Positions 19,274 to 63,413 are shown, counted from the stretch's first letter. The stretch: DNA of 64,000 nt from Halorussus vallis (GCF_024138165.1 NZ_CP100001.1:248001-312000), one strand, 5' to 3'. The notes: a model not told the origin generated them from the sequence alone. Program-made: numbers and translations.

Positions 19274-20335
19274 TCAGTCGTCGGCGGCGACCTCGGGGTC
19301 GGGGTCGGCGGCGGCCCGCGCGTCGCGGGCAGCCTCGATTCGCTCGGCGACGTCGACGACCCGGCCCGTCTCGGCGGCCTCGTAGGCCGCCTCGGTCAGC
19401 GCGGTCACCCTGAGGCCGAACGACCCGGGCACCGACGGGTCGTCGCCCGTCTCGACCGCGCCGACGAAGTCCTCGAGCTTTCGGCGCGCGAGCGTCTCGA
19501 AGTCGCGGTCGGCCGCGATATCGGCCTCGTAGGTGACGCCGTCCTCGCAGACGGTCAGGCTCGACCCGTCGTACTCGACGTGGCCCTCGGTCCCCCAGAC
19601 GACGAGTCCCTCGTCGGGTTCGCCGTTCGTGCCGTCGCCGCTGACCGCGACGCTGGCGGTCAGCGTCCCGCCGTCGCGGTCGAGGACCGCCGCCAGCGCG
19701 CTGTTGACGTCGACGTCCTCGCCGCGGTCGTCGACGACCGCGGCGACGCTCCGCGGGGTGGAGTCGGTCGTCCAGAGCAGCGCGTCGAGCAGGTGGCTCC
19801 CCGAGTCGTACAGTTGGCCGCCGCCAGAGAGGTCCGGCGCGGTCCGCCAGGTGCCCCGCTGCAGTTCGATCCAGTCCTGGCCGAGGTAGGCGTTGGCGGC
19901 GTGGACCTCGCCGATTCGACCCGACGAGATGACGCGGCGGAGTTCCCGGAAGAGCGGGTCGAAGTGGCGCTGGTAGCCGACCTGGAGGACGCGCCCGCGC
20001 TCCTCGGCGGTCGCCACGAGGTCGACGGCGTTCTCGACGCCGGTGACCATCGGCTTCTCCAGGAAGACGTCGACGCCCGCCTCGAAGCAGGCGATGGCCT
20101 GGTCGTAGTGGAGGGTGTGGGGCGTGACGATGCTCACCGCGTCGAGGTCGTGGGCGGCCAGCATCGCCGCGTGGTCCTCGTAGGACGGCGCGTCGTACGC
20201 GGCGTCGAAGCCCTCGCGGGCGTCGGGCGAGACGTCCGCGCCCGCGACGATTTCGACGCCGTCTATCTGGTCGTAGAGTCCGAGTTCGAGTCGTCCGAGC
20301 CCGCCGAGACCGACGGCCCCGAGTCGTACTGCCAT
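19274..20335 (-). CDS. Gfo/Idh/MocA-family NAD(P)-dependent oxidoreductase
   Basis: 353 residues from ATG 20335 (MAVRLGAVGLGGLGRLELG). N-terminal Rossmann fold with GxGxxG-like GAVGLGGLG, then the family motif EKPM (DVFLEKPMVTG) holding the catalytic Lys, and the second domain containing GGGQLYDSGSHLLDALLW. The C-terminus is an Ala/Asp tail. The family oxidises or reduces sugars, inositols and related diols with bound or soluble NAD(P)(H). Substrate is unknown. Divergent from the membrane hydrolase gene, sharing a ~120-bp promoter region. Confidence 0.92.
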   Translation of the reverse strand: MAVRLGAVGLGGLGRLELGLYDQIDGVEIVAGADVSPDAREGFDAAYDAPSYEDHAAMLAAHDLDAVSIVTPHTLHYDQAIACFEAGVDVFLEKPMVTGVENAVDLVATAEERGRVLQVGYQRHFDPLFRELRRVISSGRIGEVHAANAYLGQDWIELQRGTWRTAPDLSGGGQLYDSGSHLLDALLWTTDSTPRSVAAVVDDRGEDVDVNSALAAVLDRDGGTLTASVAVSGDGTNGEPDEGLVVWGTEGHVEYDGSSLTVCEDGVTYEADIAADRDFETLARRKLEDFVGAVETGDDPSVPGSFGLRVTALTEAAYEAAETGRVVDVAERIEAARDARAAADPDPEVAADD

Positions 20336-20454
20336 GGGTCGGCGCGAGGAGCCGTCCGTTGTATGCTTTCTGGTCCGGTGATGGCGCGCTCGGTCCGCGG
20401 GCGACGCGACCGACAATCCAAGAGGCTATGCGAACGGAACCGGAAGCCGGTGGC

Positions 20455-21012
20455 ATGTGGCCGTGGGGGCATCTCGCGTTCGGCTATCTGCTGTACTCGG
20501 TGCTGGTTCGCGTTCGAACCCGCCGACCGCCGGGTGACGCGGCGACCGTCGCGCTCGCGGTCGGCACCCAGTTTCCGGACCTCGTGGACAAACCGCTGGC
20601 GTGGTCGCTGGACGTCCTCCCGAGCGGACGCTCGCTCGCTCACTCGGCGTTCACCGCTGCGTTCGTCGTCTTCGTCGTCTGGGCCGTCCTCCGCCGACGG
20701 AACGCCGAAACCGCGGCCGCGGCATTCGGCGTCGGCTACGTCTCGCACCTGGTGGGCGACGCGCTCGACCCCGTGCTCGCCGGCGACTACTACCATCTCG
20801 GATTCCTCGGCTGGCCGCTGGTTCCCGCCATCGAGTACCCGACCGAACAGAGCTTCGTCGCCCACTTCCGCGAACTGAGCCTCGGGTCGCTGACGTCGGT
20901 CGAAGCGGGGTTCGCCGTCGCGATAACGCTCCTCTGGCTGGTCGACGGAGCGCCCGGAGCGAGGGCCCTCAGAACGATTCCGAAGTGGGCCCGACGAGTG
21001 CTGTCGGCCTGA
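20455..21012 (+). CDS. Membrane-bound metal-dependent hydrolase (YdjM-like)
   Basis: About 185 residues from ATG 20455 (MWPWGHLAFGYLLYS); an in-frame ATG at 20428 would add 9 residues. It has 4-5 membrane helices and the family's polar metal ligands: H6 in WGHLA, D in QFPDLVDKPL, H in RSLAHSAF and H/D in YVSHLVGDALDP. The family (COG1988) includes inner-membrane metal-dependent hydrolases of unclear substrate. The gene stands alone. Confidence 0.85.
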   Translation: MWPWGHLAFGYLLYSVLVRVRTRRPPGDAATVALAVGTQFPDLVDKPLAWSLDVLPSGRSLAHSAFTAAFVVFVVWAVLRRRNAETAAAAFGVGYVSHLVGDALDPVLAGDYYHLGFLGWPLVPAIEYPTEQSFVAHFRELSLGSLTSVEAGFAVAITLLWLVDGAPGARALRTIPKWARRVLSA

Positions 21013-21197
21013 GGTCGAGACCGCCGGCGAGTGCCCACGGGAGAACGGTCACCGACGAACGGTCGTCGACTCTCGGCAACTTCGACCTACTATTTCGAGC
21101 CCGAACGCGGTAGTTGCGAGACATCTTCAGGAATTCCAACCGGTGAGCCGAGCGAATCCAAGAGACTATAGCGCTCGTTTGCACGCTGTCGAACTGC

Positions 21198-22463
21198 ATG
21201 GCACGCGACGAGAAGGCACGCGACCCCGTAGCGAGGCGCACCTATCTGAAACTCGCTGGTATCGGCATGTTCTCGACGACCTCGGTCACCGCCGGCGGCG
21301 GTACCGCCGCGGCCGCCCAAACCGTCGGATACGGCGGCGGCGGGTACGGACTGGTCGCCTACGGCGGCAGCAAACTGGTCGACGCGAACCCCGCCGTCAC
21401 CGTCGACGGTGCGACGAACGTCACGCAGACCGCCGCGACGCTCGGCGGCGTCGTCTCCGACCTCGGCGGCGCGACGTCGGTGACCGTTCGGTTCGAGTAC
21501 CGACCCGTCGGGGCGACAGATTGGACGGCGACCCCCGAACAGTCGCTCTCGGCGACCGGCACGTTCGGTCGGCGACTCACCGGACTCGCGGCGGGGTCGG
21601 ACTACGAGTACCGGGCGACCGCGACCGCCAGCGACGGCGACGCGGCCGCGAGTTCGACGGTGACGTTCGCGACGAAGCGCCACACCCTCGTCATCGACGG
21701 CGGAGCGAGTCCCGGGACGTTGAACGACTACTCGTTCGCGGTGAGCGGCGACGTCGAGAAGAGCGCGGAACTCGGGTCGATCCAGGCCAACGACACCGTC
21801 TCGGGGAGCACGGTTTCCGGCGAGGTCCTCGCCGGGAAGGACGGCTACCGCTTCACCGGCGACGTGACCGACTTCCGCGTGGCGGGGTCCCCGGCCGTGT
21901 ACCTCGACGGGGAGCGGGTGGACCCGGCCGACCTCGGCGAGACGACCTACCCCCGCACGCTGGTCGTCGACGGCGCCCGAGCGCCCCGCGAGCGGGCGAC
22001 CTACGAGGCGACGGTGAGCGGGAAGATAAAGAAGAGCAGTTCGCTGGGCTCGGTCCAGGCGAACGATACCATCGCGGGTGCGACCGCGAGCGGACAGGTG
22101 TACGGCGGCAAGGACGGCTACCGCTTCACCGGCGGACTCACGGAACTTCGAGTGGACGGAGCGCTCACCGTCTCGCTCGGCGGCGGTGACGGCGACTCCG
22201 CGTCGGCCGGTTCGCTCCCGAACTCGTTCGTCGTCGACGGCACCGGGACGCCGAACCGAAAGGCGACGTACTCGGTCACCGTCACGGGGAGCGTCGAGAA
22301 GAGCGGCGAACTCGGCTCGCTCCAGCGGAACGACGTCGTCTCCGGGTCCACCGCCAGCGGGGAGGTCGTCGGCGGCAAGGACGGCTACCGGTACTCTGGC
22401 GACGTGACGCGAATCGAGGTCACCGGGCCGGCCGTGATACGGTTCACCGACACGGACGGCTGA
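21198..22463 (+). CDS. Tat-exported protein with Fn3-like domain and three copies of a ~75-aa repeat domain
   Basis: 421 residues. The N-terminus carries a Tat-type signal (VARRTYLKLAGIG..., cleavage probably near residue 40). A Gly/Tyr-rich segment follows, then an Fn3-like beta domain (about 65-158). The rest is three tandem copies (about 162-238, 253-328, 342-417) of one module: T[LF]V[VI]DG...Y..[TA]V[ST]G.[VI]EKS..LGS.Q.ND...G.T.SG.V..GKDGYR[FY][TS]G. I know this module from other haloarchaeal secreted proteins but not its function; carbohydrate or surface binding is a guess. No catalytic residues evident. The repeat DNA is also strongly repetitive (gcaaggacggctaccg occurs in each copy). 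Confidence 0.82.
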   Translation: MARDEKARDPVARRTYLKLAGIGMFSTTSVTAGGGTAAAAQTVGYGGGGYGLVAYGGSKLVDANPAVTVDGATNVTQTAATLGGVVSDLGGATSVTVRFEYRPVGATDWTATPEQSLSATGTFGRRLTGLAAGSDYEYRATATASDGDAAASSTVTFATKRHTLVIDGGASPGTLNDYSFAVSGDVEKSAELGSIQANDTVSGSTVSGEVLAGKDGYRFTGDVTDFRVAGSPAVYLDGERVDPADLGETTYPRTLVVDGARAPRERATYEATVSGKIKKSSSLGSVQANDTIAGATASGQVYGGKDGYRFTGGLTELRVDGALTVSLGGGDGDSASAGSLPNSFVVDGTGTPNRKATYSVTVTGSVEKSGELGSLQRNDVVSGSTASGEVVGGKDGYRYSGDVTRIEVTGPAVIRFTDTDG

Positions 22464-22509
22464 CCGAGCGAGGCCGGTCGCTCGCGGCGGCGTTCGGTGT
22501 CGCCCGATG

Positions 22510-23928
22510 CTACGCGGTCAGGACGTGCCGGACCTGGACCAGCACGTCCTCTCTGATGGGACGGAACAGCAACAGCAGTCCGAAGTACGTCACCGCCCCG
22601 AGGCCCACGACGGCCAGCAGCACCGGCACCGTCCGGATGGTGACCGTCTGCTTGACGCCGAGCAGCAGGCCGGCCATCCCGAGCGCGGCGACCGTCCCGC
22701 AGGCGGCCTCCCGGAGCGGCAGTTCGATGGTCACGAACCGATTCAAGTAAATCGCGTGGAGGACCGTGTTCAGACCGAACGAAACGGACGTCGCGATCGC
22801 CGCGCCGACGAGGCCGAACTCGGCTATCAGGACGACGTTGAGGACGACGTTCACCACGATGGCGACGGTCGTCGCGCGCGCGGAGAGGTCGGCGTGGTCG
22901 ATGGCCCGGAGCGCCCGGCCGAACACGAGGTGGACGGTCTGTATCACCTTCTCGCCCATCAGGATGACGAGGGCGACGGAGGCCACGGTGTACGCCTCGC
23001 CGAAGACGATGCCCAGAATCTCCCGCGAGAACAGCGCGGTGCCGGCGAACGCCGGGATGGCGATCAGCAGTCCGGGCGTGAGCGCGACGGGGAGTATCGA
23101 CTCGATTCGGTCCGTCGCCTTCTGTGCGCTCCACTCGCTCACCTGGGGGAAGATGGTCAGCGCGACGGACTCGCCCGCCAGAATCACGACCATCGTGACG
23201 AGCCAGGCGATTTCGTAGCTGCTCACCGCCGACTTGGGGAGGAACACCGCGAGTATCAGCAGGTCCATCCGACTGTAGAAGTGCTTCCCGATCCCCGAGA
23301 CGACGTCGAACTTCGCGTAGGACCAGAGTGACGAGGCGTGTCGGCGGGTCGGTCTTCGGAAGCCGAGCGTCGTCTTGGAGGCGCCCCAGACGACCGTGAC
23401 GACGAAGCTCAGGAGGAGCCCGTACACGAGCGCGTACACGTCCAACCCCACCGCCAGCAGCGGAACACCGATGACGACCCAGCCGGCGTCGCGGAGGAAC
23501 TGGAGCGCGTAGGTTTCGCCGACGCGCAGTTCCCCTCGGAGCACCCTGAGCGACAGGTCGGCGAGTTCCTGCAACACCAGCGTGGCCGCGAGGTAGTACG
23601 CGAGCGGTACCCCGAAGTAGGAGTTGAGGGTCGACCGGAAGACGAGGATGGCCGCGACGACCACCGCCAGCGGGGCCAGTTTGAGCAGGAGGCCCGACGT
23701 GTACACCTCGTCCGGGGCTTCCCCCTCGCTGAGACGTTTCTCGACCGCCGCTCGGAGCCCGAAGTCGGCGGGCGTGGCCAGGATGCCGAGCACCGCCTGG
23801 AACAGGAAGAAGCTCCCGAGGACCCCCGCGCCCAGTTCGCGGGCGACGACGACGGTTCCCGCGAAGGTGACGACCGCGCCGACCGTCTTCGCGCCGAAGA
23901 GCTTGAAGCCGGCCTTTATCAGGTCCAT
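22510..23928 (-). CDS. Oligosaccharide flippase (Wzx/MVF-type)
   Basis: 472 residues with about 12-14 hydrophobic helices. The N-terminus (MDLIKAGFKLFGAKTVGAVVT..., then ARELGAGVLGSFFLFQAVLG and ATPADFGLRAAVEKR) is the classic polysaccharide-biosynthesis transporter pattern. It would flip lipid-linked glycans across the membrane, here probably dolichyl-linked oligosaccharides for S-layer glycosylation or exopolysaccharide units; AglR plays this kind of role in Haloferax. It opens the surface-glycan locus that runs to ~38 kb. Confidence 0.9.
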   Translation of the reverse strand: MDLIKAGFKLFGAKTVGAVVTFAGTVVVARELGAGVLGSFFLFQAVLGILATPADFGLRAAVEKRLSEGEAPDEVYTSGLLLKLAPLAVVVAAILVFRSTLNSYFGVPLAYYLAATLVLQELADLSLRVLRGELRVGETYALQFLRDAGWVVIGVPLLAVGLDVYALVYGLLLSFVVTVVWGASKTTLGFRRPTRRHASSLWSYAKFDVVSGIGKHFYSRMDLLILAVFLPKSAVSSYEIAWLVTMVVILAGESVALTIFPQVSEWSAQKATDRIESILPVALTPGLLIAIPAFAGTALFSREILGIVFGEAYTVASVALVILMGEKVIQTVHLVFGRALRAIDHADLSARATTVAIVVNVVLNVVLIAEFGLVGAAIATSVSFGLNTVLHAIYLNRFVTIELPLREAACGTVAALGMAGLLLGVKQTVTIRTVPVLLAVVGLGAVTYFGLLLLFRPIREDVLVQVRHVLTA

Positions 23929-45405: not shown

Positions 45406-46416
45406 ATGAACGACCTCCTCGTGCGGGCGGCCCGCGGCGAACGCACCGAGCGACCGCCGGTCTGGCTGATGCGCCAGGCCGGCCGCTACATCCCCGAGTA
45501 CCGCGAGATTCGCGAGGACTACACCTTCAGGGAGGCCATCTCGACCCCGGAGGTCGCCGAGCGAATCACGCTCCTGCCCTGGGAACTGTTCGAACCCGAC
45601 GGCCTCGTGATGTTCTCGGACATCCTTACCGTCCTCGAACCGCTCGGCCTCGACTACCGCATCGAGAGCGGAGTCGGCCCGGTGGTCGAGAACCCCGTCC
45701 AGTCGCCCGCCGACGTACCCGCGGGCCACGCCGACGTGCGCGAGGAACTCGACTACGTCGGCGCGCTGCTCGAACGCCTCCAGGAGAGCGTCGGCGGGAA
45801 GTCGGCCATCATCGGCTTCACCGGCGGTCCCTTCACCCTCGCGGCCTACGCCGTCGCGGGCGAACCCGCGGGGAAGAAACAGCTCCCCGTCCGGAAGTTC
45901 CGGGTCGAACACCCCGAGGCGTTCGCCGAACTGCTCGAACGGTTCACCGACGTCGTGGTCGAGTACGTCCGCTATCAGGTGGAGTCTGGCGCGGAGGTGA
46001 TTCAGCTGTTCGACACCTACGCCGGACTGCTGACCCCCGACGACTACGAGACGTTCGTCCAGCCGCTCCACCGCCGAATCTTGGAAGCCGTCGACGTCCC
46101 CTCCATCGTCTTCGTCCGGAACCCCGGCGGGAAACTCGACCTGCTGGCCGACGCGAGCGCCGACGTCGTTGGCCTCGACTGGACCGTCGACATGGCCGAC
46201 ACCCGCGAGGAACTGGGCGAAACTCCCGTGCAGGGCAACCTCGACCCCTCCTACCTGCTCGGCGACGAGGAATTCGTCCGGGAGAAGACAGCGGAGGTCA
46301 TCGAGAAGGCCGGCCCCGAGGGCCACATCCTCAACCTGGGCCACGGCATCGACCGGAACACGCCCGTCGAGAACGCGCAGGCGTTCGTGGAGACGGCCAA
46401 GCAGTGGGAGTGGTAG
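45406..46416 (+). CDS. hemE: Uroporphyrinogen III decarboxylase
   Basis: 336 residues, the usual family length. Signature PVWLMRQAGRYIPEYRE near residue 18-34 (the substrate-binding R-Q-A-G-R), FSDILTVLEPLG (catalytic Asp), GFTGGPFTLAAYAVAG, FDTYAGLLTPDDYE, and GNLDPSYLLG with ILNLGHGIDRNTPVENAQAFVE at the end. It decarboxylates the acetate side chains of uroporphyrinogen III to coproporphyrinogen III. hemG and hemH lie 4.6 kb further on. Confidence 0.96.
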   Translation: MNDLLVRAARGERTERPPVWLMRQAGRYIPEYREIREDYTFREAISTPEVAERITLLPWELFEPDGLVMFSDILTVLEPLGLDYRIESGVGPVVENPVQSPADVPAGHADVREELDYVGALLERLQESVGGKSAIIGFTGGPFTLAAYAVAGEPAGKKQLPVRKFRVEHPEAFAELLERFTDVVVEYVRYQVESGAEVIQLFDTYAGLLTPDDYETFVQPLHRRILEAVDVPSIVFVRNPGGKLDLLADASADVVGLDWTVDMADTREELGETPVQGNLDPSYLLGDEEFVREKTAEVIEKAGPEGHILNLGHGIDRNTPVENAQAFVETAKQWEW

Positions 46417-51019: not shown

Positions 51020-52399
51020 TTACTCGTCTCGGACGTCCGCCAGTTCCGCGGCCAACTGCTCGGCCTCCCGCAACCGACTCGGCACGCCCATCCGGGCCGT
51101 GTAGTTCGTCGCGAGTCGAACTCCCGGCGGGAGTTCGACTCGCTCTAGGGCGTCCCACGAGGCGTCGTAGGCCGGAAAGCCCCGCGGAACGCGGTAGACG
51201 TCTACGACCTCGGCGGGCGCGCCCGTGACGGTTTCGAACTCCGCGGCGGCGACATCGCCGAGCGTCTCGTCGCTCCCGTCCAGTATCTCGGGGTCGTGCA
51301 TCCCGCCGAGGAAGGCGGTGTAGACGCCGTCGCTTCGCTCCGCTCGCGACGAGCCCGCGCTCGCTTCGCTCGCGCGAACGCCGCGGTCGAACATGGCGTC
51401 GTTCCACGAGACGCCGAGGGTGCGGACGTCTTCGTCGTAGCCAACCTGATAGCCGAGCGCGTTCGGGTCGACGTCGCCGTCGCTCGCGACGTCCGCGCGC
51501 AGGTAGACCATCGCCAACGGGTTGTAGGTGAGTTCGCGGAGCGCGTCGGCCGAGTCGGGCGTGAGGCCGGCCACGAGGTCGGCAGTGAGGTCGGCGGGCG
51601 TCGTCAACACGACCTGGTCGAACGCCGTCGCGCCGTCGAGCGTCTCCAGTTCGTACCCCGGACCCGCCCCGGCCTCTCTGACGGCCGTGACGGGCGTCCC
51701 GAGGCGGACCCGGTCGGCGTGGGCGGCCGCGAGCGCCTCGGGGAGGCGCTGGAGTCCGTCCTCGAACGAGATTGCCGGCGGCGACTCGTGGTCGCTCTCC
51801 GAGCGTTTGATGGCGGTCTTGAGCAGGCTTCCGTCGCGGGCTTCGAGTTTCAGCAGGCCGGCGAGCGCGTGGCGGGCGGGCATCTCGGCGGGGTCCGAGC
51901 CGTAGATGCCGCCGAACAGCGGCCCGAGGAGGTTGCGGTAGGCCTCCGCGCCGAACTTCCGGGTGAACAGGTCCGCGGCGGTTTCGTCGGGACCGGCCGG
52001 GTCGGTGAACGGTTCGGCCAGCACCTCGCGCTTGGCGTCGGCCGACAGCAGGTCGGTCGCCATGAACTCCGCGACCGTGAACGGCGCGGTGTGGAGCGCC
52101 CCGTCGGCGTAGACCCGGATGGAGAGGTCCGGGTCGGCGACCAGGACCTCGTCGTCGAGGCCCAGGTCGCGAATTAGACCGTTCAGCAGGTCGGTCCGGC
52201 GAATTCGCTGGGGGCCGCGCTCGGTCAGCAGGCCGTCCGCGCGCTCGCTCCGGACGACGCCGCCGGGGTCGGCGGCGGCCTCGAAGAGTTCGAACTCGAC
52301 GCCGCGCTCGGCCAGAAAGTGAGCCAGCGACAGGCCCGTGACGCCGCCGCCGACGATGCCGACCCGGGGTCCGGCTTCTGAGTCGCTCGCGCCGGTCAT
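51020..52399 (-). CDS. hemG: Protoporphyrinogen oxidase (FAD-dependent, HemY/HemG type)
   Basis: 459 residues from ATG 52399, which overlaps the hemH stop (ATGA). Rossmann FAD-binding motif VGIVGGGVTGLSLAHFLAERG, then PGGVVRSERADGLLTERGPQ, FADxFTRKFG-like region (AADLFTRKFGAEAYRNLLGPLFGGIYGSDPAEM, typical of PPO), and ELPPGVRLATNYTARMGVPSRLREAEQLAAEL at the C-terminus. It oxidises protoporphyrinogen IX to protoporphyrin IX (or coproporphyrinogen to coproporphyrin in the coproporphyrin branch). A variable Ser/Ala/Arg insertion (SEASAGSSRAERS) interrupts one loop. Confidence 0.93.
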   Translation of the reverse strand: MTGASDSEAGPRVGIVGGGVTGLSLAHFLAERGVEFELFEAAADPGGVVRSERADGLLTERGPQRIRRTDLLNGLIRDLGLDDEVLVADPDLSIRVYADGALHTAPFTVAEFMATDLLSADAKREVLAEPFTDPAGPDETAADLFTRKFGAEAYRNLLGPLFGGIYGSDPAEMPARHALAGLLKLEARDGSLLKTAIKRSESDHESPPAISFEDGLQRLPEALAAAHADRVRLGTPVTAVREAGAGPGYELETLDGATAFDQVVLTTPADLTADLVAGLTPDSADALRELTYNPLAMVYLRADVASDGDVDPNALGYQVGYDEDVRTLGVSWNDAMFDRGVRASEASAGSSRAERSDGVYTAFLGGMHDPEILDGSDETLGDVAAAEFETVTGAPAEVVDVYRVPRGFPAYDASWDALERVELPPGVRLATNYTARMGVPSRLREAEQLAAELADVRDE

Positions 52400-53448
52400 C
52401 GCGGTGCGTTCAGACACATCGCGCCGGGGCTGTCGGAACACTGGCACTGCCGGAACTGGTAGTAGCCGGGGTCGAAGCCGGCGACGAACGGTTCGACGAG
52501 GTCGGCGAGGACGGTCGGGAACCGGTCGTCGTCGTGGGGAATCGGCACCCGGTAGAAGTCGAGGCCGAGTTCCGCGGCCTCCTCGCGGAGTTCGTCGTCG
52601 AGTTCCGAGAGCGTCTCGCTCTGCTCGTGCATGAAACTCACCGGTTCGACGACGACGCGTTCGGCGCCGGACTCCGCGACGGTTTCGAGCGCGTCCTCGA
52701 CGTCGGGTTCGGTCCACGAGACGTCCCGGTTCTCGTGGTTCTGGTAGCCGAGCGTGTACCCCTCGATGCCGAGCTTTCGGGCGACGACGTCGCAGAACTC
52801 CTCGACGTACTCGTCGTACCGGCTCCCCTCGTCCAGATAGTGGGTGGGCGTGCCGTGGGCGGAGTAGAGCAGTTCCGTCTCGGGGTCGGCCAGGTCGACG
52901 CCGTGGGCGTCGGTGAATCGCCGGACGTTGTCGGTCCGGAGCGCGTTGTAGCGCGGGTGGCGGTGCCAGCCCGTGATCTCGGCGACCGGGACGTCCCAGT
53001 CGCGGTCGGCCACCGCGTCCGTCAGTTCGTCGAGCGCTGCGACGGTCGTGGAGGCGCCGCAGAGCGGGTAGATGGGAAGTCCCACGAGTTCGTCGACGCC
53101 GTCCTCGCGGGCGGCCTCGACCGCGTCGCCGATGAACGGTTCGGTGAACTGCATGCCGACGTAGGTTTCGGCGTCGTAGCCCCGGGCGTCGAGTTCGTCG
53201 GCCAGCATCGCGGCCTGGGCCTCCGCCTGGGGTTTGAGCGGCGACCCGCCGATCCCCTCGTACTCCTCGATGAGGCCGGGCGCGCGCCGCTCGGCGAGTT
53301 GTCGGGAGCGCTCGCGGGCCTCCTCCTCGGTGGTGTCACCCTCCAGCGAGCGGTTGTTCATGAAGATGCGTTCGAGGTAGCCGACGACCTTCTCTCGCGT
53401 CGGTTCCGCGGGTTCGCCGAAGTTCAGCAGGACGACCCCTGTGGTCAT
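52396..53448 (-). CDS. hemH: Ferrochelatase (protoporphyrin/coproporphyrin)
   Basis: 350 residues from ATG 53448. Motifs: VVLLNFGEPAEP near the start, YVGMQFTEPFIGDAV, IYPLCGAST, LYSAHGTPTHYLD (catalytic His), NRDVSWTEPDVEDAL, and EPVSFMHEQSETLSELD. It inserts Fe2+ into the porphyrin. The C-terminus holds a Cys cluster (CQCSDSPGAMC) that may bind an iron-sulphur cluster as in many ferrochelatases. Co-transcribed with hemG by overlap. Confidence 0.93.
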   Translation of the reverse strand: MTTGVVLLNFGEPAEPTREKVVGYLERIFMNNRSLEGDTTEEEARERSRQLAERRAPGLIEEYEGIGGSPLKPQAEAQAAMLADELDARGYDAETYVGMQFTEPFIGDAVEAAREDGVDELVGLPIYPLCGASTTVAALDELTDAVADRDWDVPVAEITGWHRHPRYNALRTDNVRRFTDAHGVDLADPETELLYSAHGTPTHYLDEGSRYDEYVEEFCDVVARKLGIEGYTLGYQNHENRDVSWTEPDVEDALETVAESGAERVVVEPVSFMHEQSETLSELDDELREEAAELGLDFYRVPIPHDDDRFPTVLADLVEPFVAGFDPGYYQFRQCQCSDSPGAMCLNAPR

Positions 53449-53696
53449 GGTCGGGGCTTGGGACAGTGCAGTTGAATAGCTGTCGTTCCCGGACCGCGAC
53501 GGCGACATCGGAGAGGTGAGGCGGGAACGAAACGCGTCGAAGGGAGGACCGCGGAATCGGCGCGGTCGCCCGACCGAGAGATTTAGGCGAAGCCCTCATC
53601 CCGGTGTGTCCCTTAGCGTGGTAGCCGTAAGTGAAACATTACCAACCTTTCGTCCGGCGCGGGCGAACGTAATTCCGACCGTCCATCCCAGAAACC

Positions 53697-56600
53697 ATGT
53701 CGACCGTTCCCGAGTATCTGACGAACCGCGGACTGTTCTCGAATCGCTACCTCGGCGAGCGCCTCCCGCGGACCGACCGCTGGACCGAGGTCGACGACGG
53801 CGCGGTCCGGAACGCCTACGAGGAGATTCGGGACCTCTACCGCGGGCGAATCGACCTCGCCGCGGAGGGCAACGAGCGACGGCCCGAGGCGGACTTACTC
53901 GACCGCGTGTTCGACGCGCTGGGGTACCCGCCGAGGACCGAGGAGCCGATTCGAGCCGACGGCGACCGTCGCGGTCCGGACTGTCGGATTCGCTGCCTCG
54001 ACGCGGCCGACCTCGATGCGGCCGACTTCGGCCCGACCGACCGCGACGCGACCGTCGCCACCGACGGTCGGCGGTGGCGACTCTACTACCGACCGGCGAA
54101 CCGACCCTTCGACGCACACTACGAGGTCGACCTGCCCGCGTTGCTGGCGGCCGGCGACCCGGAGCGGTTCAAGTACTTCTACCTCTTCTTCCGACGGCGA
54201 GCGTTTCCTCCCCTCGAACGAGACGCCGCCGACGCCGCGGAAGCGCGAGCGGACGAACCCTTCGTCGAGTACGTCTGCGAGCGGAGCGACGCCTTCGCCG
54301 CGGCGCTGAGCGACGACCTCCGCGAGAACTGCGCCGCGGCGCTGTCGACGCTCGCACGGGGATTCCTTGCCGACTCGGACCTCGGCGCCGACGACCTCTC
54401 CGCCGTCTACGAGGCGTCGCTGACCTACCTCTTCCGCCTCGTCGTCGTGCTGTACGCCGAGAGCGGCGGTCGCGGCCCGCTCGATGTCGACGACCCGGTC
54501 TACCGCCGGCGATTCAGCCTCGACGCGCTCAAGCGGCGGGTCGCCGACGAACTCGACGGGGGCGACCCCGACTTCCGGCCGGGGAGGACGACCCTCTGGG
54601 ACCGACTCGGCGACCTGTTCGAACTCGTCGACCGGGGGAGCGCGGCGCTCGGCGGGGACGAGGGTGACCCCTCGGTTCCGGCCTACGACGGCGACCTCTT
54701 CGCTACCGGCCCCGACTCGGGCGGGACCGCCGCGTTCCTCGCCGCGAACGAGGTGGGCGACGCCCACCTCGCACGGGTCGTCGACCTGCTGGCCCGTCGA
54801 AAGCGCCGCGGGGAAAACGCCGACGGCGACGGAGACGCCGGTGGCGAGAGCGACGACGGTGACGGCGGCGAACGGACCTTCGTCGACTACTCCTCGCTGG
54901 ACGTGCGCCACCTCGGACGCATCTACGAGGACCTGCTGGAGTACGACCTCGAACTCGCCGACGACTCGCTCGCCGGCGTCGAACCGGGCGACGCCGACAT
55001 CGCCGCCGGGACGGGGACGCGAAAGGCGACCGGGTCGTACTACACGCCCGAGTTCGTGGTCCGCCACGTGGTCGAGCGCGCGCTCGACCCGCTCGTCGCC
55101 GAGATTCGCGACGACCTCAACCCGACCGACCCCGACTACGCCGGAACGTTCGCCGAACGCGTGTTCGACCTCTCGGTGCTCGACCCCGCGATGGGGAGCG
55201 GCCACTTCCTCGTCGCGGCGGTCGAACGCCTCTCTCGGGCCGTCGCCGCGGCCCGCCGGGAGCAGGCCGAGCGACTCGGCCCGGAGACGCTCGAAGGCGG
55301 CCGCGGCGTCGACTGGGCGCGCCGACAGGTCGCCCGCCGGTGCGTCTACGGCGTCGACCGGAACGGGATGGCGGTCGAACTGGCGACGGCGTCGCTGTGG
55401 CTCCGGGCACCCGACGCCGACCGGCCGGTGGCATCCCTCGACCGCCACCTAAAGCGCGGCGACTCGCTGGTGGGCGTCGGCCCGGGAGACGCCGACGCGC
55501 CCGCGGGGTCGCGGGGAGCGCGAAGTGCGCGGAAAGCGCAGAGATCGCGGCCCCCAGACGACGAATCGGCCGACGAACGTCGCCGCCGACTGACCGCGGC
55601 GGCGAACGTCCGAACCGCCGAGCGGTTGGGGCTCGACCTGCCACCGGACGCCGTCGAGCGCGCGAACGAGGCCGTCGAGTCGGACACGGCCCGAGAGGAC
55701 GTCGAGGAAACCCGGTGGTTCGAGGCGGTCCGGTCGGCGGCCGCCGAGCGGGGATTCTTCCACTGGCGACTCGCCTTCCCGGAAGTGTTCCACGGCGCCG
55801 ACGGGTCGGCGGCGGCCGACGCCTGTTTCGACGCCGTGGTCGGCAATCCGCCGTACGTCCGGAGTCGCAACCTCGACGCCGACCTGAAGTCCTACGTCCG
55901 GGAGCGCTACGAGACGGCCGAGGGGGCGTTCGACCTCTACGTGCCGTTCCTCGAACTCGCGGGCGAACTCGGCGCGCGAGTCTCGGTCGTCGTCCCGAAC
56001 AAGTGGACCACGACCCGGTACGCCCGGACGCTCCGGGCGCGACTGCTCGGCGACCTCGGCCTGCGGGAGGTGCTCGACGCCTCGTCGCTGGACGCGTTCC
56101 CCGACGCCGACGTCTACCCCGTGGTCGCGACCTACGAACCCGGAAGAGACGGAGAAGCCACCGAGACGAACTCGATAACCGTCAGGCGCGCCGAGGACCC
56201 GGCCGCGCTCGCAGGGGCCCCGGCGACCCCGGTCCCGCGGTCGTTCGTCGACTCGCTCGGCGGACGGGTGATTCCGGTCGGTCTCGACCCGGCGTTCGCC
56301 GACCTCGCGGCCGACGTGGTGGCCGATTGCGACCGCCTCGGCGACCACGCGACGTTCGCCGAGGGCGTCCACACCGGCAACGTCCGCGAGAAACTGCTGA
56401 CAGACGGCCGGGGCGACGGACGGAGGAACGGAGACGACGGGACTCACCGGAAGGTGGTCGGCGGCGCGGAGGTCGGTCGCTACCGACTCGACTGGGGCGG
56501 GCGGCGGGTGCGCTACGACGACGGACTCGTCGACCGCGAGTCGGGCGAGTACGCCGACCTCCGGGACCCCGCAGTGTTCGAGGGCGAGAAACTTCTCGTC

Positions 56601-57650
56601 CGGGACATCAGCGACCGGCCCGTCGGCGCGTACGACGGCGAGGGCCACTACGCGCTCAACACCCTCTACAGCGTCAGATCCCGCCCGGAGAGCGACCTGC
56701 CGCTCCGGTACCTGCTGGGGGTGTTCAACTCGGCGTTTGTCGCGCGCTACTTCCGGCAGGTGTACGGCGGCACTCGGGTCAGCGGCGACTACCTCCGCTT
56801 CAAGCCGACGTTCGCCGCCGAGATTCCGGTGCCGGACCCCGACCCCGCGCTGGTGTCGCCGCCCGACGTGGCGGCCGCCGCGGGCGTCGAACGCCGGATT
56901 CCCGACGACCCCGCCGCGGCCGTGGCGGCGCTCGTCCAGCGCCGCCGCGAACTCGGCGACGAGCGCGCGGTGCTGGACCTCGACCTCCTCGACTACCTCG
57001 ACGCCGACCCCGTGAACGCCGATGAAGCCGACGGCGCCGGGAACGCTCGGACGCTGGGCGAGGTCGGCATTCCGGCCGACGGCGTCGGCGATTCGATTCT
57101 GGCCGCGACCGCGGCCGACCGCGAGGGCCTCCGAATCGGCCGGGTCGACGTCGAGCGGGGGTGCGCGTGCGGCCAGCCCGGGGAACGTGTGCGCGCAGAC
57201 GCCGTCGCCGGTGACGGCGTCTGCGCGCTCGCGGTGTCGGCGACCGCCCGGTACAAACCCGAGAGCCGCGGACGGAGCAACACCTGTACTGCCGACACCG
57301 ACCGGTGGGGGTACGTCGAAACCGACCCCGTGGCCGCGCTGTGCGTTCACGGCCTCGGCTGGCGTGAGACCGCGCTGGTCGAGGCGTTCGTCCCGGCCGC
57401 CGTCGAGCGCGGCGGGGGGTTCGCCGGCGTCCGCGCGACGGCGACGAAGACCATCTCGCCGCTTGACCGCCTGCGGGCGCTCGTCCTGCCGAGCGCCGCG
57501 GTCGTCGCCGAAGTCGGAGAGCACTACCTCGCGGTCCGCGAGCGGGCGGTCGAACTGGACGACGCCATCGCGGCGGTCGAGGACGCCGTCGACGAGATCG
57601 TCTGTCGGCTGTACGGACTGAACGAGAGGGAAATCGAGGTCGTGCGCTAA
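53697..57650 (+). CDS. Eco57I-type adenine methylase, likely lacking its nuclease core
   Basis: 1317 residues. SAM-binding motif I LDPAMGSGHF is at about 495-504 and the catalytic NPPY at about 717-720, followed by target-recognition-like segments (VIPVGLDPAFADLAADVVADCDRLGDHATFAEGVHTGN). This is the Eco57I/type IIG family, in which one chain carries nuclease, N6-adenine methylase and target recognition. Here the expected N-terminal PD-(D/E)xK core is not found: the strand pattern before GPDCRI (94-99) is followed within ~25 residues by TDGRRWRLY (122-130), and no Lys occurs before residue ~159. An orphan methylase role is therefore likely. A 16-bp inverted repeat lies in the C-terminal coding part. 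No separate nuclease or specificity gene adjoins. Confidence 0.88.
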   Translation: MSTVPEYLTNRGLFSNRYLGERLPRTDRWTEVDDGAVRNAYEEIRDLYRGRIDLAAEGNERRPEADLLDRVFDALGYPPRTEEPIRADGDRRGPDCRIRCLDAADLDAADFGPTDRDATVATDGRRWRLYYRPANRPFDAHYEVDLPALLAAGDPERFKYFYLFFRRRAFPPLERDAADAAEARADEPFVEYVCERSDAFAAALSDDLRENCAAALSTLARGFLADSDLGADDLSAVYEASLTYLFRLVVVLYAESGGRGPLDVDDPVYRRRFSLDALKRRVADELDGGDPDFRPGRTTLWDRLGDLFELVDRGSAALGGDEGDPSVPAYDGDLFATGPDSGGTAAFLAANEVGDAHLARVVDLLARRKRRGENADGDGDAGGESDDGDGGERTFVDYSSLDVRHLGRIYEDLLEYDLELADDSLAGVEPGDADIAAGTGTRKATGSYYTPEFVVRHVVERALDPLVAEIRDDLNPTDPDYAGTFAERVFDLSVLDPAMGSGHFLVAAVERLSRAVAAARREQAERLGPETLEGGRGVDWARRQVARRCVYGVDRNGMAVELATASLWLRAPDADRPVASLDRHLKRGDSLVGVGPGDADAPAGSRGARSARKAQRSRPPDDESADERRRRLTAAANVRTAERLGLDLPPDAVERANEAVESDTAREDVEETRWFEAVRSAAAERGFFHWRLAFPEVFHGADGSAAADACFDAVVGNPPYVRSRNLDADLKSYVRERYETAEGAFDLYVPFLELAGELGARVSVVVPNKWTTTRYARTLRARLLGDLGLREVLDASSLDAFPDADVYPVVATYEPGRDGEATETNSITVRRAEDPAALAGAPATPVPRSFVDSLGGRVIPVGLDPAFADLAADVVADCDRLGDHATFAEGVHTGNVREKLLTDGRGDGRRNGDDGTHRKVVGGAEVGRYRLDWGGRRVRYDDGLVDRESGEYADLRDPAVFEGEKLLVRDISDRPVGAYDGEGHYALNTLYSVRSRPESDLPLRYLLGVFNSAFVARYFRQVYGGTRVSGDYLRFKPTFAAEIPVPDPDPALVSPPDVAAAAGVERRIPDDPAAAVAALVQRRRELGDERAVLDLDLLDYLDADPVNADEADGAGNARTLGEVGIPADGVGDSILAATAADREGLRIGRVDVERGCACGQPGERVRADAVAGDGVCALAVSATARYKPESRGRSNTCTADTDRWGYVETDPVAALCVHGLGWRETALVEAFVPAAVERGGGFAGVRATATKTISPLDRLRALVLPSAAVVAEVGEHYLAVRERAVELDDAIAAVEDAVDEIVCRLYGLNEREIEVVR
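57191..57228. repeat. Inverted repeat in the methylase C-terminal coding part: 16-bp arms, 6-nt loop
   Basis: Arms 57191-57206 (gcgcgcagacgccgtc) and 57213-57228 are exact reverse complements around gccggt. The encoded segment is a Cys/Ala/Gly/Val-rich loop near CACGQPGERVRADAVAGDG. Confidence 0.93.
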
Positions 57651-57750: not shown

Positions 57751-58821
57751 ATGGAGTTGCCCCCTTTCGAACTGGAACGGTGGTTGGACGAGTACGAACC
57801 GGACGCCGACCTGATGCTCGCCGAAAGCGGCGTTCGGAGCCTTCCCGCCGACCGTTTCGACCTCGACGCGGGCGAACTCGGCTACGTCATCCCGACCGAC
57901 GGATCACCGGCGTTCCGGGCCGACATCGCCGAGCGCTACGACCGCGACGCCGAGGAGGTGGTCCTCACGTGCGGAACCCAAGAGGCGGACTATCTCACGT
58001 TCATGGCGCTCTTAGACGAGGGCGACCACAGCGTCGTCGTCTCGCCGACCTACCAGTCGCTCGCGAGCGTGCCCGGCGCGGTCGGCGAGGTGAGCGAAGT
58101 CCGAACCGAGCCACCGGAGTGGGAACTCTCCGTCGACGCCGTGGCGGAGGCGATGCGCTCGGACACCCGGTTGGTCGTCCTGACGAATCCGAGCAATCCG
58201 ACGGGCAAGTACCTCGGGGCGGAGACGATTCAGGCGCTGTACGACCTCGTCGAGGAGAACGACGCGTACCTGCTCGTCGACGAGGTGTATCGCATGCTGG
58301 CCGACGACCCTCACGCTCCGGCCGCCTCGCTCGGGCCGCGAGCCATCTCGACCGCGGGCGTCTCGAAGTCGTACGGCCTCGCGGGTGCGCGCCTGGGTTG
58401 GGTCGTCGCGGAGACGGAGATCGCGGACGCGGTGCGCAAGTGGAAGGACTACACCACGATTTCGCCCCCGAAACTCGGTCAGCACGTCGCTCGACAGGCG
58501 CTCGGGGACCAGGAGGCCGAGATTCTCGAAGCCAACCGAGCCCACGCGAAATCGAACCGGGAACGCGTCGTCGCGTTCGTCGAACGCTACGACCTCGACT
58601 GGTTCGAGCCGACGGGCGTGAACGGGTTCCCGACGATTCCCGACGGGTTCGAGAGCGGAAAGCAGTTCTGTCGGTCGCTGTTCGAGGCCGAGAGCGTCGT
58701 CCTCGCGCCCGGCGACGTCTTCGGCTACCCCGACCGATTCCGAATCGGCTTCGGACTCCACACCGACGAACTCGAGGAGGGGCTCGAACGGGTCGGTCGG
58801 CACATCGAAAACCACGACTGA
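57751..58821 (+). CDS. PLP-dependent aminotransferase, class I/II
   Basis: 356 residues. Fold type I motifs: LTCGTQEADYLTFMALLDEGD, VVLTNPSNPTGKYLG, LLVDEVYRML, the PLP-lysine segment STAGVSKSYGLAGARLGW, and FRIGFGL near the end with the substrate-binding Arg. The NPTG and DEVYR hallmarks are those of aspartate/tyrosine/alanine transaminases and capreomycidine-synthase-like enzymes. Substrate not assignable. The following gene is convergent. Confidence 0.92.
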   Translation: MELPPFELERWLDEYEPDADLMLAESGVRSLPADRFDLDAGELGYVIPTDGSPAFRADIAERYDRDAEEVVLTCGTQEADYLTFMALLDEGDHSVVVSPTYQSLASVPGAVGEVSEVRTEPPEWELSVDAVAEAMRSDTRLVVLTNPSNPTGKYLGAETIQALYDLVEENDAYLLVDEVYRMLADDPHAPAASLGPRAISTAGVSKSYGLAGARLGWVVAETEIADAVRKWKDYTTISPPKLGQHVARQALGDQEAEILEANRAHAKSNRERVVAFVERYDLDWFEPTGVNGFPTIPDGFESGKQFCRSLFEAESVVLAPGDVFGYPDRFRIGFGLHTDELEEGLERVGRHIENHD

Positions 58822-58866: not shown

Positions 58867-59613
58867 TTAGACGTACGCCTCGAACACGTCGGCGCGGAGT
58901 CGCCCGTGGACGTGTTCGAGGAGGTCCTTCAGATTCTCGGCGTCCTCGCGGTTGTACTTCACCAGTCGGTCGAGTGCGGCGTCGTCCTCGTTGCGGTCGT
59001 AACGGTGCCAGAGCCGGACCGCCTCGCGGCCGTCGACGTCGCCGTCGGCGCGGTCGATGCCGACCGCCTTCTCGACGTTCTTCAGTCCCCCGGAGAGGCC
59101 GACCTGCTTGCAGGCGTACAGCAGGTCGAGGTGGGGCGTCGTCACGTCGAGGTCGAGGCAATCCTCCAGGAAGGGCTGGTCGAAGCGCTTGCCGTTGAAC
59201 GAGACGAGCATGCTCGACTCGGCGAACTCCTCGCGGAGGACGTCGGCGGTGAGGTCCTCGTCCTGCACGTAGGTTCGGGTGTCGCCCCCACGGTGGAGGC
59301 TCACCGTCGTCACGTCGTGACGGGAACTATCGAGGCCCGTGGTTTCGATGTCGAAGAAGCAGGCGTCGTCCGCGAAGTTTTCGTAGGCCCGCCAGAACTG
59401 GTCGCTCGGCAGGGCGTCGCCGAAGAAGTCGGCATCGCCCGCGTCGAGGCTGTCGCGGGCGGCGTCGATGAACTCCAGGACGTTCTCGGTCGTCTTCGGC
59501 CCCAGCAACCCCGTTTCGAACTCGTCCCAGTGGGTGACCCCCTGCCGCCAGAGTTTGCGCTCGGTCTTCGTCCCCACCCCGCTGGCGGCGATGAAGCTGT
59601 TCTCCAGTCGCAT
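58867..59613 (-). CDS. DEDD-type exonuclease domain protein (RNase H-like, YprB-like)
   Basis: 248 residues from ATG 59613. DEDD exonuclease residues: FDIETTGLD (about 89-97, D and E), the SFNGKRFDQPFL motif (D), and VKYNREDAENLKDL (D). The first ~60 residues form a helix-hairpin-helix-like domain (IAASGVGTKTERKLWRQGVTHWDEF). The domain order HhH plus DnaQ/YprB-like 3'-5' exonuclease suggests a nucleic-acid trimming or repair role. Confidence 0.88.
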   Translation of the reverse strand: MRLENSFIAASGVGTKTERKLWRQGVTHWDEFETGLLGPKTTENVLEFIDAARDSLDAGDADFFGDALPSDQFWRAYENFADDACFFDIETTGLDSSRHDVTTVSLHRGGDTRTYVQDEDLTADVLREEFAESSMLVSFNGKRFDQPFLEDCLDLDVTTPHLDLLYACKQVGLSGGLKNVEKAVGIDRADGDVDGREAVRLWHRYDRNEDDAALDRLVKYNREDAENLKDLLEHVHGRLRADVFEAYV

Positions 59614-59930
59614 GGTGGAGTCGATTCGCCCGAGGGGTCTTAACCGGCGGTGGTTTTGCATCGGTCTTCGGTTTATGCGACCTGTCACAGTACCCAACCG
59701 AACGCCGGCAGGTCACCCCGGAATCGCTCGGTCGCACAGACCACCGGTGTTCGAGGCAGTCACCTTTGCTGTCGTCCGCGGCGAGTGGCTCTGTCGAATC
59801 CCTTCAGGACTGACAGTAGACGACGCGAGCGATGCGTGGTGCGAATTTGTCAGCTTTGTTCTCTACGGATGCGTAACCCGGCAGGTAATTCGTAGGCGTA
59901 ACGTCCGAAATTCGGCCGACTGGTAGTCCG
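59614..59930. other. 317-bp intergenic region, possible gene remnant
   Basis: It separates the exonuclease gene from the erythromycin-esterase-like gene. A plus-strand reading frame ending at 59926 contains a protein-like stretch (FEAVTFAVVRGEWLCRIPSG, WCEFVSFVLYGCVTRQV) without a family match or sound start. It could be the tail of a decayed gene at the edge of the accessory region. Confidence 0.4.
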
Positions 59931-61178
59931 TCAGTCCAAGTGGACAAGCGGCGACGTCTCACGGACGAAGAGCAACCCATCGAACTCGCCGAGGTCGGAG
60001 GGGCGGTACTTTACGGGATTGTCGCCATCGGGAGTCCCGCCCCAGATATCGTGTCGCCGTGGTCGCGTCCGGAGCCACTCTTCGATCGACGAGTCGTCGT
60101 AGAGGTCGTCGACTGACAGGTAGAACAGCGGCTCATCGACTTGCCCCAATACGTCCGGAATCGACCCCGATGGCGGGTCGGGGATGGGATGCTCGACGAT
60201 GTCCTCCGTCCTGCCGTCCAACGCGACCACCGTCCCGGCACCGAGTTCGAATCCGACCGGACAGTATCTCTCCCCGTACGAGTCGGCGAGCCACTCCCCC
60301 ATCGACCGAACGTCCACCTCCCATTCGCCGAGGACGTGTCTGCCGCGGTTGAGATGGCCGTTGTGTCCCCAGAGGACGACCGGACCCGTCGAGCGGTCGT
60401 GAATCCACTCGACGGTCTCGGCCATCGTCTCGTCTCTGAGTGCCATCCGCCCCTCGTGGTCACGCTCGTGGGCCTCCAGCTGGCGGTCGATGAGGTGGAG
60501 CCGGTGGCGGACGCGTTCGTACGCCTGACGCGAATCCGCCTCGACCCACGCCGACTCGTTCGCGTCGAGCATCGGCTTCAGCGTCGAGTGCACTCGCCGT
60601 GCACTTTCGACCAGCGCCTGGCGCTCGTCGTCGGAGTCGTAGCCGGTCGTCATGGTGTCGAGGTCCGCGAGAATGGATTCCTCGACGTCAGCATCGACGC
60701 GTTCGAGGTACGACCGGAGCCCGTTTGTCGCGTTCTCGATGATCGTCATGTCGAAGCCGTAGAGGTAGACGCGGTCCTCGGGCGGGCGAGAGGCGTTGAA
60801 CGACTGCAGCCACTCGAAGAGGTCGGCCATCGTCTCGGTTTTCACTGTGCGGTAGTCGTCGATCTCGACGAGAAGCGATCGGATGTCACCCTCGCCAGAC
60901 ACGATGAGGTCGTTGACCCGACACAGGGGGTCGAACCCGGCCTCGATGCCGACCGCCCGGACCCCGAACTCCTCGACGAGCAGTCGGATAAGCCGGAACC
61001 GCAGTTCGTAGAACTCCTCCGTACCGTGTGAGGCTTCGCCCAGTCCGATGACCGTCGCGTCGTCGAGCCGGGAGCGCAACCCGTCGGGCAGGTCCGTAGC
61101 CGTCAGTTCGTCCGCGTTGGGGAACGGGACAGCGAGTTCCGAGAGCGACGAGAGGAGGTCTTCTTTTGTTCCAGACAC
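59931..61178 (-). CDS. Erythromycin-esterase family protein
   Basis: 415 residues. Family motifs: VIGLGEASHGTEEFYELRFRLIRLLVEEFGVRAVGIEAGFD (catalytic-type H and E), VYLYGFDMTI, TGPVVLWGHNGHLNRGRHVLG, and the C-terminal FDGLLFVRETSPL. Ere-type enzymes hydrolyse macrolide lactones; many homologues (EreA/EreB, BcR135/136-like) act on other esters. Archaeal ribosomes are mostly macrolide-insensitive, so a different ester substrate is likely. It borders the AT-rich accessory segment. Confidence 0.85.
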   Translation of the reverse strand: MSGTKEDLLSSLSELAVPFPNADELTATDLPDGLRSRLDDATVIGLGEASHGTEEFYELRFRLIRLLVEEFGVRAVGIEAGFDPLCRVNDLIVSGEGDIRSLLVEIDDYRTVKTETMADLFEWLQSFNASRPPEDRVYLYGFDMTIIENATNGLRSYLERVDADVEESILADLDTMTTGYDSDDERQALVESARRVHSTLKPMLDANESAWVEADSRQAYERVRHRLHLIDRQLEAHERDHEGRMALRDETMAETVEWIHDRSTGPVVLWGHNGHLNRGRHVLGEWEVDVRSMGEWLADSYGERYCPVGFELGAGTVVALDGRTEDIVEHPIPDPPSGSIPDVLGQVDEPLFYLSVDDLYDDSSIEEWLRTRPRRHDIWGGTPDGDNPVKYRPSDLGEFDGLLFVRETSPLVHLD

Positions 61179-61233: not shown

Positions 61234-61671
61234 TTAGTTGCCACTACTGAGCGATTGATAGAGTGATTCAAAGTCGAAGCCGCCGTAGAATTCCTGCAGG
61301 TGATTGTTTATCTGGTGTAGGTTCCGCTCTCTAGCAGACGGATCTTCCTGGTCTGCGTTTTTGAATACCCCCTTCAGGAGGTGCTCTATTCGCTCGCGGA
61401 GGAGACTTTCACTTCCTGTCAGGGTCGTTCTCCCCATCTGGACTTTAAGTTTCTCTCCTAAGTCCTGCACTTCGACAGATGTACCTGCTCCTATGAAGAA
61501 ATTACGCGCGGCTCGATTGACGATACTATCGTAAAGGACAGCTAATTGCTGCAATGAGGCACTCATATCGTACTGTCTGCCATCCTCCGTTCGAATGACA
61601 AACTCGATGTTATCGGGCACATCTGACCCGTACCATCCGTATGACATGGACTTTAACTCGAACTCTATCAT
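61234..61671 (-). CDS. Unrecognised small protein family, paralogue A
   Basis: 145 residues. N-terminal beta-rich half (MIEFELKSMSYGWYGSDVPDNIEFVIRT), a central helix (SLQQLAVLYDSIVNRA), strands with GAGTSVEVQDLGEKL, then a helical C-terminus ending GGFDFESLYQSLS. The pattern recurs in two neighbouring genes (61759-62220 and 62982-63413): M-[IV]-x-F-x-L, P-D-x-[IL], IRT, LY, E-L-R-like, ER, G-[FLI]-[DY]-x3-LY. No known domain is recognised. Codon and base use are AT-richer than the main genome. See the findings for the cluster. Confidence 0.75.
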   Translation of the reverse strand: MIEFELKSMSYGWYGSDVPDNIEFVIRTEDGRQYDMSASLQQLAVLYDSIVNRAARNFFIGAGTSVEVQDLGEKLKVQMGRTTLTGSESLLRERIEHLLKGVFKNADQEDPSARERNLHQINNHLQEFYGGFDFESLYQSLSSGN

Positions 61672-61758: not shown

Positions 61759-62220
61759 CTACCTTCCTGTTTGGTTCATGAGCCGCTCGTAGAGCTGTCC
61801 GAAGTCAAGCCCTGACTGGTTATTCATGTACTCTATCGCTTCCCGACGTTTCTGGCATCCGTTTCTTCTATTCAAGGTAGAAAATATCTCGGCTAGAAAC
61901 GGCTCTAAAGATGTTCGGAGTTCCTCGTAGGTCGTAGTTATCGGTTCGTCCATGTCCCATCGTCCGATTTCAATCTGGTCCCCATCTTCGACAACCGTGT
62001 AGAATTCTGAAACGGGATATTCCGCCGAGGGAACTTCTTTCTGTGCACAACCGTAAAGCTTGGTCAAGACGACGAGAGAGTCAGATTTCTCTATTTTGAC
62101 TCCTTGGGGTGTTCTTATGACGTACTCGATTTCGTCGGGGGCCATGCCACTCGTCACGCGAACCCAATCTGCGACTTCGAGTACTCTTTTTAGCTGGAAT
62201 TCGACCATCGGTGTTCTCAC
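61759..62220 (-). CDS. Unrecognised small protein family, paralogue B
   Basis: 153 residues if the GTG at 62220 is used; an ATG at 62208 (MVEFQLKRVLEVADW) is the alternative and matches the paralogues' first residues. The GTG start overlaps the stop of a 20-aa upstream ORF (GTGA), so translational coupling is possible. Shared features with A and C: P-D-E-I-E-Y-VIRT, SLVVLTKLYG, TVVEDGDQIEIGRW, TTTYEELRTSLEPFLAEIF, LDFGQLYERL. Function unknown. Confidence 0.72.
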   Translation of the reverse strand: MRTPMVEFQLKRVLEVADWVRVTSGMAPDEIEYVIRTPQGVKIEKSDSLVVLTKLYGCAQKEVPSAEYPVSEFYTVVEDGDQIEIGRWDMDEPITTTYEELRTSLEPFLAEIFSTLNRRNGCQKRREAIEYMNNQSGLDFGQLYERLMNQTGR

Positions 62221-62981: not shown

Positions 62982-63413
62982 TCAACTCGTCAGTTGCTCG
63001 TAGAGTACTCCGACATCGTACCCGATGCCCTTATCGTGGACTTGCTTTTCTGCGTATCGGATGGCGTCTTCCCGCTCGTCAGGGCCTTCTCTCACGTCTT
63101 TTGCTGCAAACACTTCTCTCAGCAGTTGTTTCAGATTTTCTCGCAGTTCTCCGAACGTCGTCTGGACACTCAGACGATTTGCTTCGAATATTACCCCTGA
63201 GTCATCCCCGATAATCCGGATGGTCGAACCGGTCCCGACGAGTAGTTCACCGGGTTCTTCGTGCAAGACGTATCCGTATAGTTCGAACAATCCCATCAGA
63301 GATGTCTCCAACACGTGCGATTCAGACGCAGTACGTATCTTTACGGTCAGGTCGTCAGGAATTCCAATTCCGCTCCAACCGTCCCATTCGTTTTCAAGGT
63401 CAAATTTGATCAT
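62982..63413 (-). CDS. Unrecognised small protein family, paralogue C
   Basis: 143 residues (MIKFDLENEWDGWSGIGIPDDLTVKIRTA). Shares with A and B the N-terminal strand pattern, IRT, SLMGLFELYGYV, GTGSTIRIIGDDSGV, TFGELRENLKQLLREVF, PDEREDAIRYAE and the terminal GIGYDVGVLYEQL. Beta-rich N-terminal half, helical C-terminal half. Function unknown; see findings. Confidence 0.75.
   Translation of the reverse strand: MIKFDLENEWDGWSGIGIPDDLTVKIRTASESHVLETSLMGLFELYGYVLHEEPGELLVGTGSTIRIIGDDSGVIFEANRLSVQTTFGELRENLKQLLREVFAAKDVREGPDEREDAIRYAEKQVHDKGIGYDVGVLYEQLTS

Follow-up and report, generated by a model that had tools for sequence, protein, structure and literature searches.

The Halorussus vallis gene at positions 53697-57650 (+) of the window, the 64,000-nucleotide stretch of NZ_CP100001.1 (248001-312000) analyzed here, encodes a 1317-aa Type IIG-derived protein that has lost its nuclease catalytic core but retains its methylase motifs and target recognition domain. 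The gene is quite probably a domesticated orphan N6-adenine DNA methyltransferase with a Type IIG restriction-modification enzyme as its ancestor, and its nuclease loss is one of several in a single recognition-domain lineage of haloarchaea.

Organization of the gene

The reading frame of 1317 codons is stop-free, can be extended upstream by at most eight codons, is 72% GC, and is carried by a 557-kb contig. Pfam matches the protein to the Eco57I methylase family (PF07669, residues 549-801, E 9.1e-28) and to the TaqI_C recognition domain (PF12950, residues 920-1045, E 1.5e-12), with no domain match in residues 1-440. Residues 1-93 (53697-53975) form the helical N-terminal border of what was once the nuclease domain, in which homology persists and 63% of conserved positions are retained; they are followed by a scar replacing the catalytic core (residues 94-121, 53976-54059) and by the downstream edge of the domain, running from TDGRRWRLY to FKYFYLFF (residues 122-165, 54060-54191). 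A helical connector, assigned by alignment, joins the nuclease to the methylase (residues 166-445, 54192-55031). The N6-adenine methylase domain (residues 446-860, 55032-56276), recognized by PF07669 and by alignment, includes the aligned SAM-binding motif I (DPAMGSGHF, residues 496-504, 55182-55208) and catalytic motif IV (NPPY, residues 717-720, 55845-55856). The TaqI_C-type target recognition domain (residues 884-1045, 56346-56831) and a C-terminal region (residues 1046-1317, 56832-57647) complete the protein, all on the plus strand.

Loss of the nuclease core

A first-pass annotation, which had correctly placed the reading frame, PDC at residues 94-96, TDGRRWRLY at 122-130, and the first lysine at K159, proposed that the nuclease catalytic core is lost, and the comparison with homologues agrees. 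Counted from PD to T(N/D)G, the window protein has 28 residues and intact orthologues have 71 (as in L057, an intact protein at the same locus, where PD starts at 92 and TNG at 163), a difference of 43 residues, and all of the compared homologues with a complete motif have these extra residues. The N-terminal domain of an intact orthologue is modeled by AlphaFold (pLDDT 86.6) with a strand at 94-97, a helix at 100-111, a strand bearing DAK at 122-126, a helix at 144-155, and a strand at 159-163; the PDB structure that it matches best is DrdV (probability 1.00, E 2.6e-3, although the TM-score by query is only 0.37), and HsdR and BpuSI rank lower. In the model of the window N-terminus, the outer elements are present, both helices and the catalytic strand are absent, residues 88-115 are of low confidence, and there is no nuclease match in the PDB. 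The N-terminal PD-(D/E)xK nuclease of a Type IIG enzyme is therefore missing. The in-frame loss of about 43 residues took the D/E-x-K strand together with the helices on either side, and a protein so altered is predicted to be unable to cut.

A clean in-frame deletion had been named as potential evidence of domestication, but the deletion is not clean. About 25 residues without counterpart lie between the two edges, where PDC is followed by an unalignable stretch that includes a 15-nt tandem duplication (53997-54026, +) encoding LDAAD LDAAD with one mismatch, and the duplication shows that the event was not a clean excision. The same deletion is seen in none of the other genomes compared, so it may be private to H. 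vallis. We give practically no credence to a sequencing or assembly error as its source, because the frame is uninterrupted, the scar consists of diverged sequence rather than a simple gap, the assembly is 99.7% complete in 5 contigs, and relatives have lost the nuclease independently.

Restriction might persist through a relocated or noncanonical active site, or through a nuclease acting in trans. Some enzymes accommodate changes to a PD-(D/E)xK site; BamHI carries Glu in place of Lys, a K-to-E change is by itself no proof of inactivity, and relatives with DVE or DTE triplets could be active. The window protein, however, is missing the whole strand and its adjoining helices, and its sole D/ExK, found when we looked for a nuclease core elsewhere in the protein, is DLK729, within the methylase. 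Searching the genome with the intact N-terminal domain gave no second copy and no separate nuclease fragment above chance; it matched the window gene itself in two pieces, covering query residues 4-106 and 158-211 but nothing of the catalytic part at 107-157. With no nuclease fold in the model either, persisting restriction is very improbable. A match on contig C1 (E 0.13) was considered as a trans nuclease fragment and set aside as being at chance level. No cognate nuclease is present within the protein or adjoining it, as in orphan methyltransferases.

Retention of the methylase and recognition domains

Measured over positions identical across five intact reference proteins, the window protein retains 18% in the nuclease core, 63 to 71% in its edges, 77% in the connector, 74% in the methylase, 87% in the C-terminus, and 92% in the recognition domain, the best-kept part. 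The methylase motifs had been described as intact, and GSYYTPE, DPAMGSGHF, and NPPY are all present by alignment. The protein thus has the fused gamma-type N6-adenine methylase (SAM motif plus NPPY) and C-terminal target recognition domain (PF12950) of Type IIG enzymes, and with the SAM-binding and NPPY motifs and a strongly conserved recognition domain all kept, it most likely still methylates adenine. In the predicted mechanism, the TaqI_C-type domain engages the target site and the enzyme methylates adenine at N6, so that one strand of an asymmetric site carries the mark, in the manner of Type IIG methylases; its specificity is presumably unchanged.

An alternative is that an unused Type IIG gene is simply decaying, its nuclease first, and that its methylase has no activity or is not expressed. 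The window branch of the methylase tree exceeds the branches of intact orthologues in length, and dN/dS between the window gene and intact L057 is 0.55 in comparison with 0.25 to 0.31 for intact pairs, although dS is unreliable in these GC-rich genes; the raised ratio may reflect somewhat relaxed constraint on the entire protein. There is also a precedent in the silent Type IIG fragments of Haloferax volcanii, where the split pair HVO_A0006/HVO_A0237 gives no detectable methylation (PMC5867850). That pair is a broken-up haloarchaeal Type IIG system like the window gene, but consists of two genes and retains the nuclease part. Against general decay stands the disparity between the recognition domain, with all methylase motifs kept, and the nuclease core; the 1317 stop-free codons also count against it, weakly in a gene of 72% GC. 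Together with the Haladaptatus form described below, these make decay an unlikely reading, and we favor a domesticated methylase.

Graded nuclease decay at one Halorussus locus

The gene is bounded on its left by the ferrochelatase gene hemH (52396-53508, -; PF00762) and on its right by an RNase_H_2 family gene (58867-59697, -; PF13482), the two flanks of a syntenic locus. Its immediate right neighbor, a class I/II aminotransferase gene (57751-58821, +; PF00155), was not found at the orthologous loci searched. Eight of 16 Halorussus genomes, including that of the window, have the gene between hemH and RNase_H_2; in the other eight, the same flanks are 0.8 to 2.9 kb apart and the gene is absent. 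It is evidently dispensable in those genomes, and absence from half of the genus is a further point compatible with decay. A tree of the flanking proteins (hemG, hemH, and RNase_H_2) broadly agrees with the methylase tree, with some forks weakly supported; the window and G017 are basal, followed by a group of G002, G007, G015, G013, G005, and G008. This agreement suggests vertical inheritance of the gene with several gene losses. Two other Halorussus homologues, L058 (G001) and L059 (G003), initially looked like orthologues and were ruled out since they sit at other loci.

The D/ExK triplet differs among the eight copies: it is DAK in G005, G008, and G015 and EVK in G007, and the noncanonical forms are DTE in G002, DVE in G013, EFV in G017, and the deletion in the window. 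On sequence grounds, the deletion and the EFV of G017 are strong evidence of nuclease inactivity. The two K-to-E copies each lie beside intact ones, G002 as the sister of G007 and G013 in a group with G005 and G008. Forcing the four noncanonical copies to be monophyletic costs 105 log-likelihood units and is rejected (p-AU 2.9e-5), as is monophyly of the two K-to-E copies (72 units, p-AU 2.3e-5). These rejections imply at least three nuclease losses within Halorussus, provided that loss is never reversed, and the window deletion, treated as a single event in the first-pass annotation, is one among several independent losses.

The locus also bears on whether the protein is the methylase of a multigene defense system, DISARM DrmMI or BREX PglX, which would never have needed its own nuclease. 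The top PADLOC match is DrmMI (E 1.7e-66), and BREX PglX models match too, but the latter at 30.8 to 65.6 bits against cut-offs of 400 to 900. The neighbors are heme genes, the aminotransferase gene, and the RNase_H_2 gene; no DrmA, DrmB, or DrmC is linked among six neighbors examined, none of the neighbors searched is a BREX gene such as PglZ or BrxL, and the genome's only MZB/DUF1998 match, which would mark DrmB, falls on a different contig. An intact nuclease domain is, moreover, present in orthologues at this locus. We reject both assignments, and membership in such a defense system is extremely improbable.

Recurrent loss within one recognition-domain lineage

Nuclease loss extends beyond the genus. 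We scored the homologues, gathered with the window protein as query, against the window recognition domain, and the scores split cleanly, with 26 homologues at 155 bits or more and every other at 76 or less. Ten of the 26 have no nuclease domain at all (eight from Haladaptatus and two from another family), and in 10 of the 16 that have some N-terminal domain the motif is not intact. By contrast, only one of 35 homologues with other recognition domains has a motif that is not intact (L021, DVR). Loss is concentrated in the proteins with this recognition domain (Fisher 6e-6), although the test ignores shared ancestry and the window protein served as the query for the sampling. The Halocatena copies are mixed, with L134 intact, L133 carrying STK, and L135 ambiguous (LGD..DVK) and counted here as not intact; L104, L136, and L137 are degenerate.

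We note that L058, although at another locus, is an EAK-type Type IIG backbone bearing the window's recognition domain (54% identical). This mixture suggests an exchange between two Type IIG backbones, and recognition domains may move among methylase backbones.

A nuclease-free form in Haladaptatus

Halomicrococcus and Haladaptatus are sister genera of Halorussus in its family. All nine Haladaptatus genomes carry a nuclease-free form of about 790 aa, flanked on one side by a copper P-type ATPase and on the other by a CitMHS transporter; in one (G023, L070) it is frame-broken just past NPPYV, at about 9760-10300, as a pseudogene or a draft error. The gene is present in 9/9 Haladaptatus genomes, one copy broken, and at a single locus in 8/16 Halorussus genomes. 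The Haladaptatus homologues (L061-L068) belong to the same lineage, with recognition domains 55 to 60% identical to that of the window, but have lost the nuclease domain and most of the connector and occupy a different locus. The Halomicrococcus copy (979 aa) has nuclease remnants and the same flanks as the Haladaptatus copy, and is within ~20 kb of hemH, hemG, and RNase_H_2. In four Haladaptatus pairs, dN/dS is 0.22 to 0.33 overall and 0.07 to 0.17 in the recognition domain, which indicates that the methylase is maintained without the nuclease and argues against simple decay. From this synteny-conserved form under purifying selection, the proposal of an orphan epigenetic methylase arising by domestication, which we infer for the window gene, gains strength.

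The repeated nuclease losses in one recognition lineage and the short, fixed Haladaptatus methylase point to the methyl mark itself as the probable retained trait. Every nuclease-less line has kept its recognition domain better than its other parts, so selection seems to favor the mark, and given several separate losses in relatives it may have acquired a use of its own. The mark might serve in gene regulation or replication, or it might protect against an enzyme of matching specificity carried by relatives; protection is plausible since sister species have apparently intact enzymes of this recognition lineage.

We also observed that the Haladaptatus pallidirubidus chromosome has two copies (L066 and L069) of a 20-kb orphan-methylase region, ~0.55 Mb apart.

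Relation to known systems

The closest relatives are haloarchaeal Type IIG enzymes of the PDY..ADAK and VDR..EAK kinds (for example, L054, L056, L057, L140, and L149), which have the N-terminal edge, connector, Eco57I methylase, and C-terminus in common with the window protein, and in L054-L057 also the recognition domain and locus, but which have the D/ExK strand and adjoining helices that account for their 43 additional residues. The solved Type IIG enzymes DrdV and BpuSI structurally match the N-terminal model of the intact orthologue, whereas the window protein is without their catalytic core. Around NPPY, the sequence also matches orphan adenine methylases of the Eco57I/BseCI kind (BseCI, E 1.3e-12; 7lni, which we take to be CamA of Clostridioides difficile, E 4.3e-8); BseCI- and CamA-kind methylases are ~580 aa with no nuclease remnant, whereas the window protein has visible remains.

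Orphan methylases of the Dam and CcrM types are thought to derive from restriction systems, and degraded restriction systems are an established idea for their source, but the route is rarely seen. An orphan methylase as such is ordinary; what is new here is that the loss is graded and recurs, both at a single locus and in a single recognition lineage. Because the steps coexist in one genus at one locus, their order (nuclease lost first, recognition domain kept), how often loss occurred, and how fit each form is are directly testable. In Halobacteria, a published survey reports CTAG and GATC orphans as conserved and restriction systems as patchy, and calls the transition to orphans infrequent (PMC6471742). 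The persistent groups named in the portion of a 2023 archaeal survey drawn on here are Type I systems and the methylases of BREX and of orphan Type II kinds; none named there derives from Type IIG enzymes (PMC10609329). On a broader reading, for which we find the case evenly balanced, a single methylation specificity, found in Haladaptatus, Halorussus, and their haloarchaeal relatives, would be shifting repeatedly and independently from restriction to a host epigenetic mark, with living intermediates (intact, point-mutated, and core-deleted) at a single chromosomal locus and a fixed stand-alone methylase in a sister genus.

Other features of the window and genome

Several other features were observed. 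Contig C4 of the window genome (G000) has an Eco57I-type gene pair repeated exactly 121,284 bases apart (19792-22662 and 141076-143946) with differing frame lengths, reflecting either a duplication or assembly redundancy of the contig. Heme genes in the window include a probable hemE by eye (45406-46416), hemG (51020-52411), and hemH (52396-53508), on the 557-kb contig, and in Halomicrococcus gelatinilyticus, hemG and hemH are on a record termed a plasmid; heme synthesis may ride secondary replicons in this family. Three small homologous proteins of 143 to 153 aa with mutual identities of 26 to 32% (61234-61671, 61759-62220, and 62982-63413, -) are encoded where the GC content is 50%, in a patch that lies at the end of the window (67% GC), and the array looks recently acquired and is possibly immunity-like. 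Adjacent coordinates (59931-61178, -) code for an erythromycin esterase family protein (PF05139, E 2.6e-53) in this archaeon.
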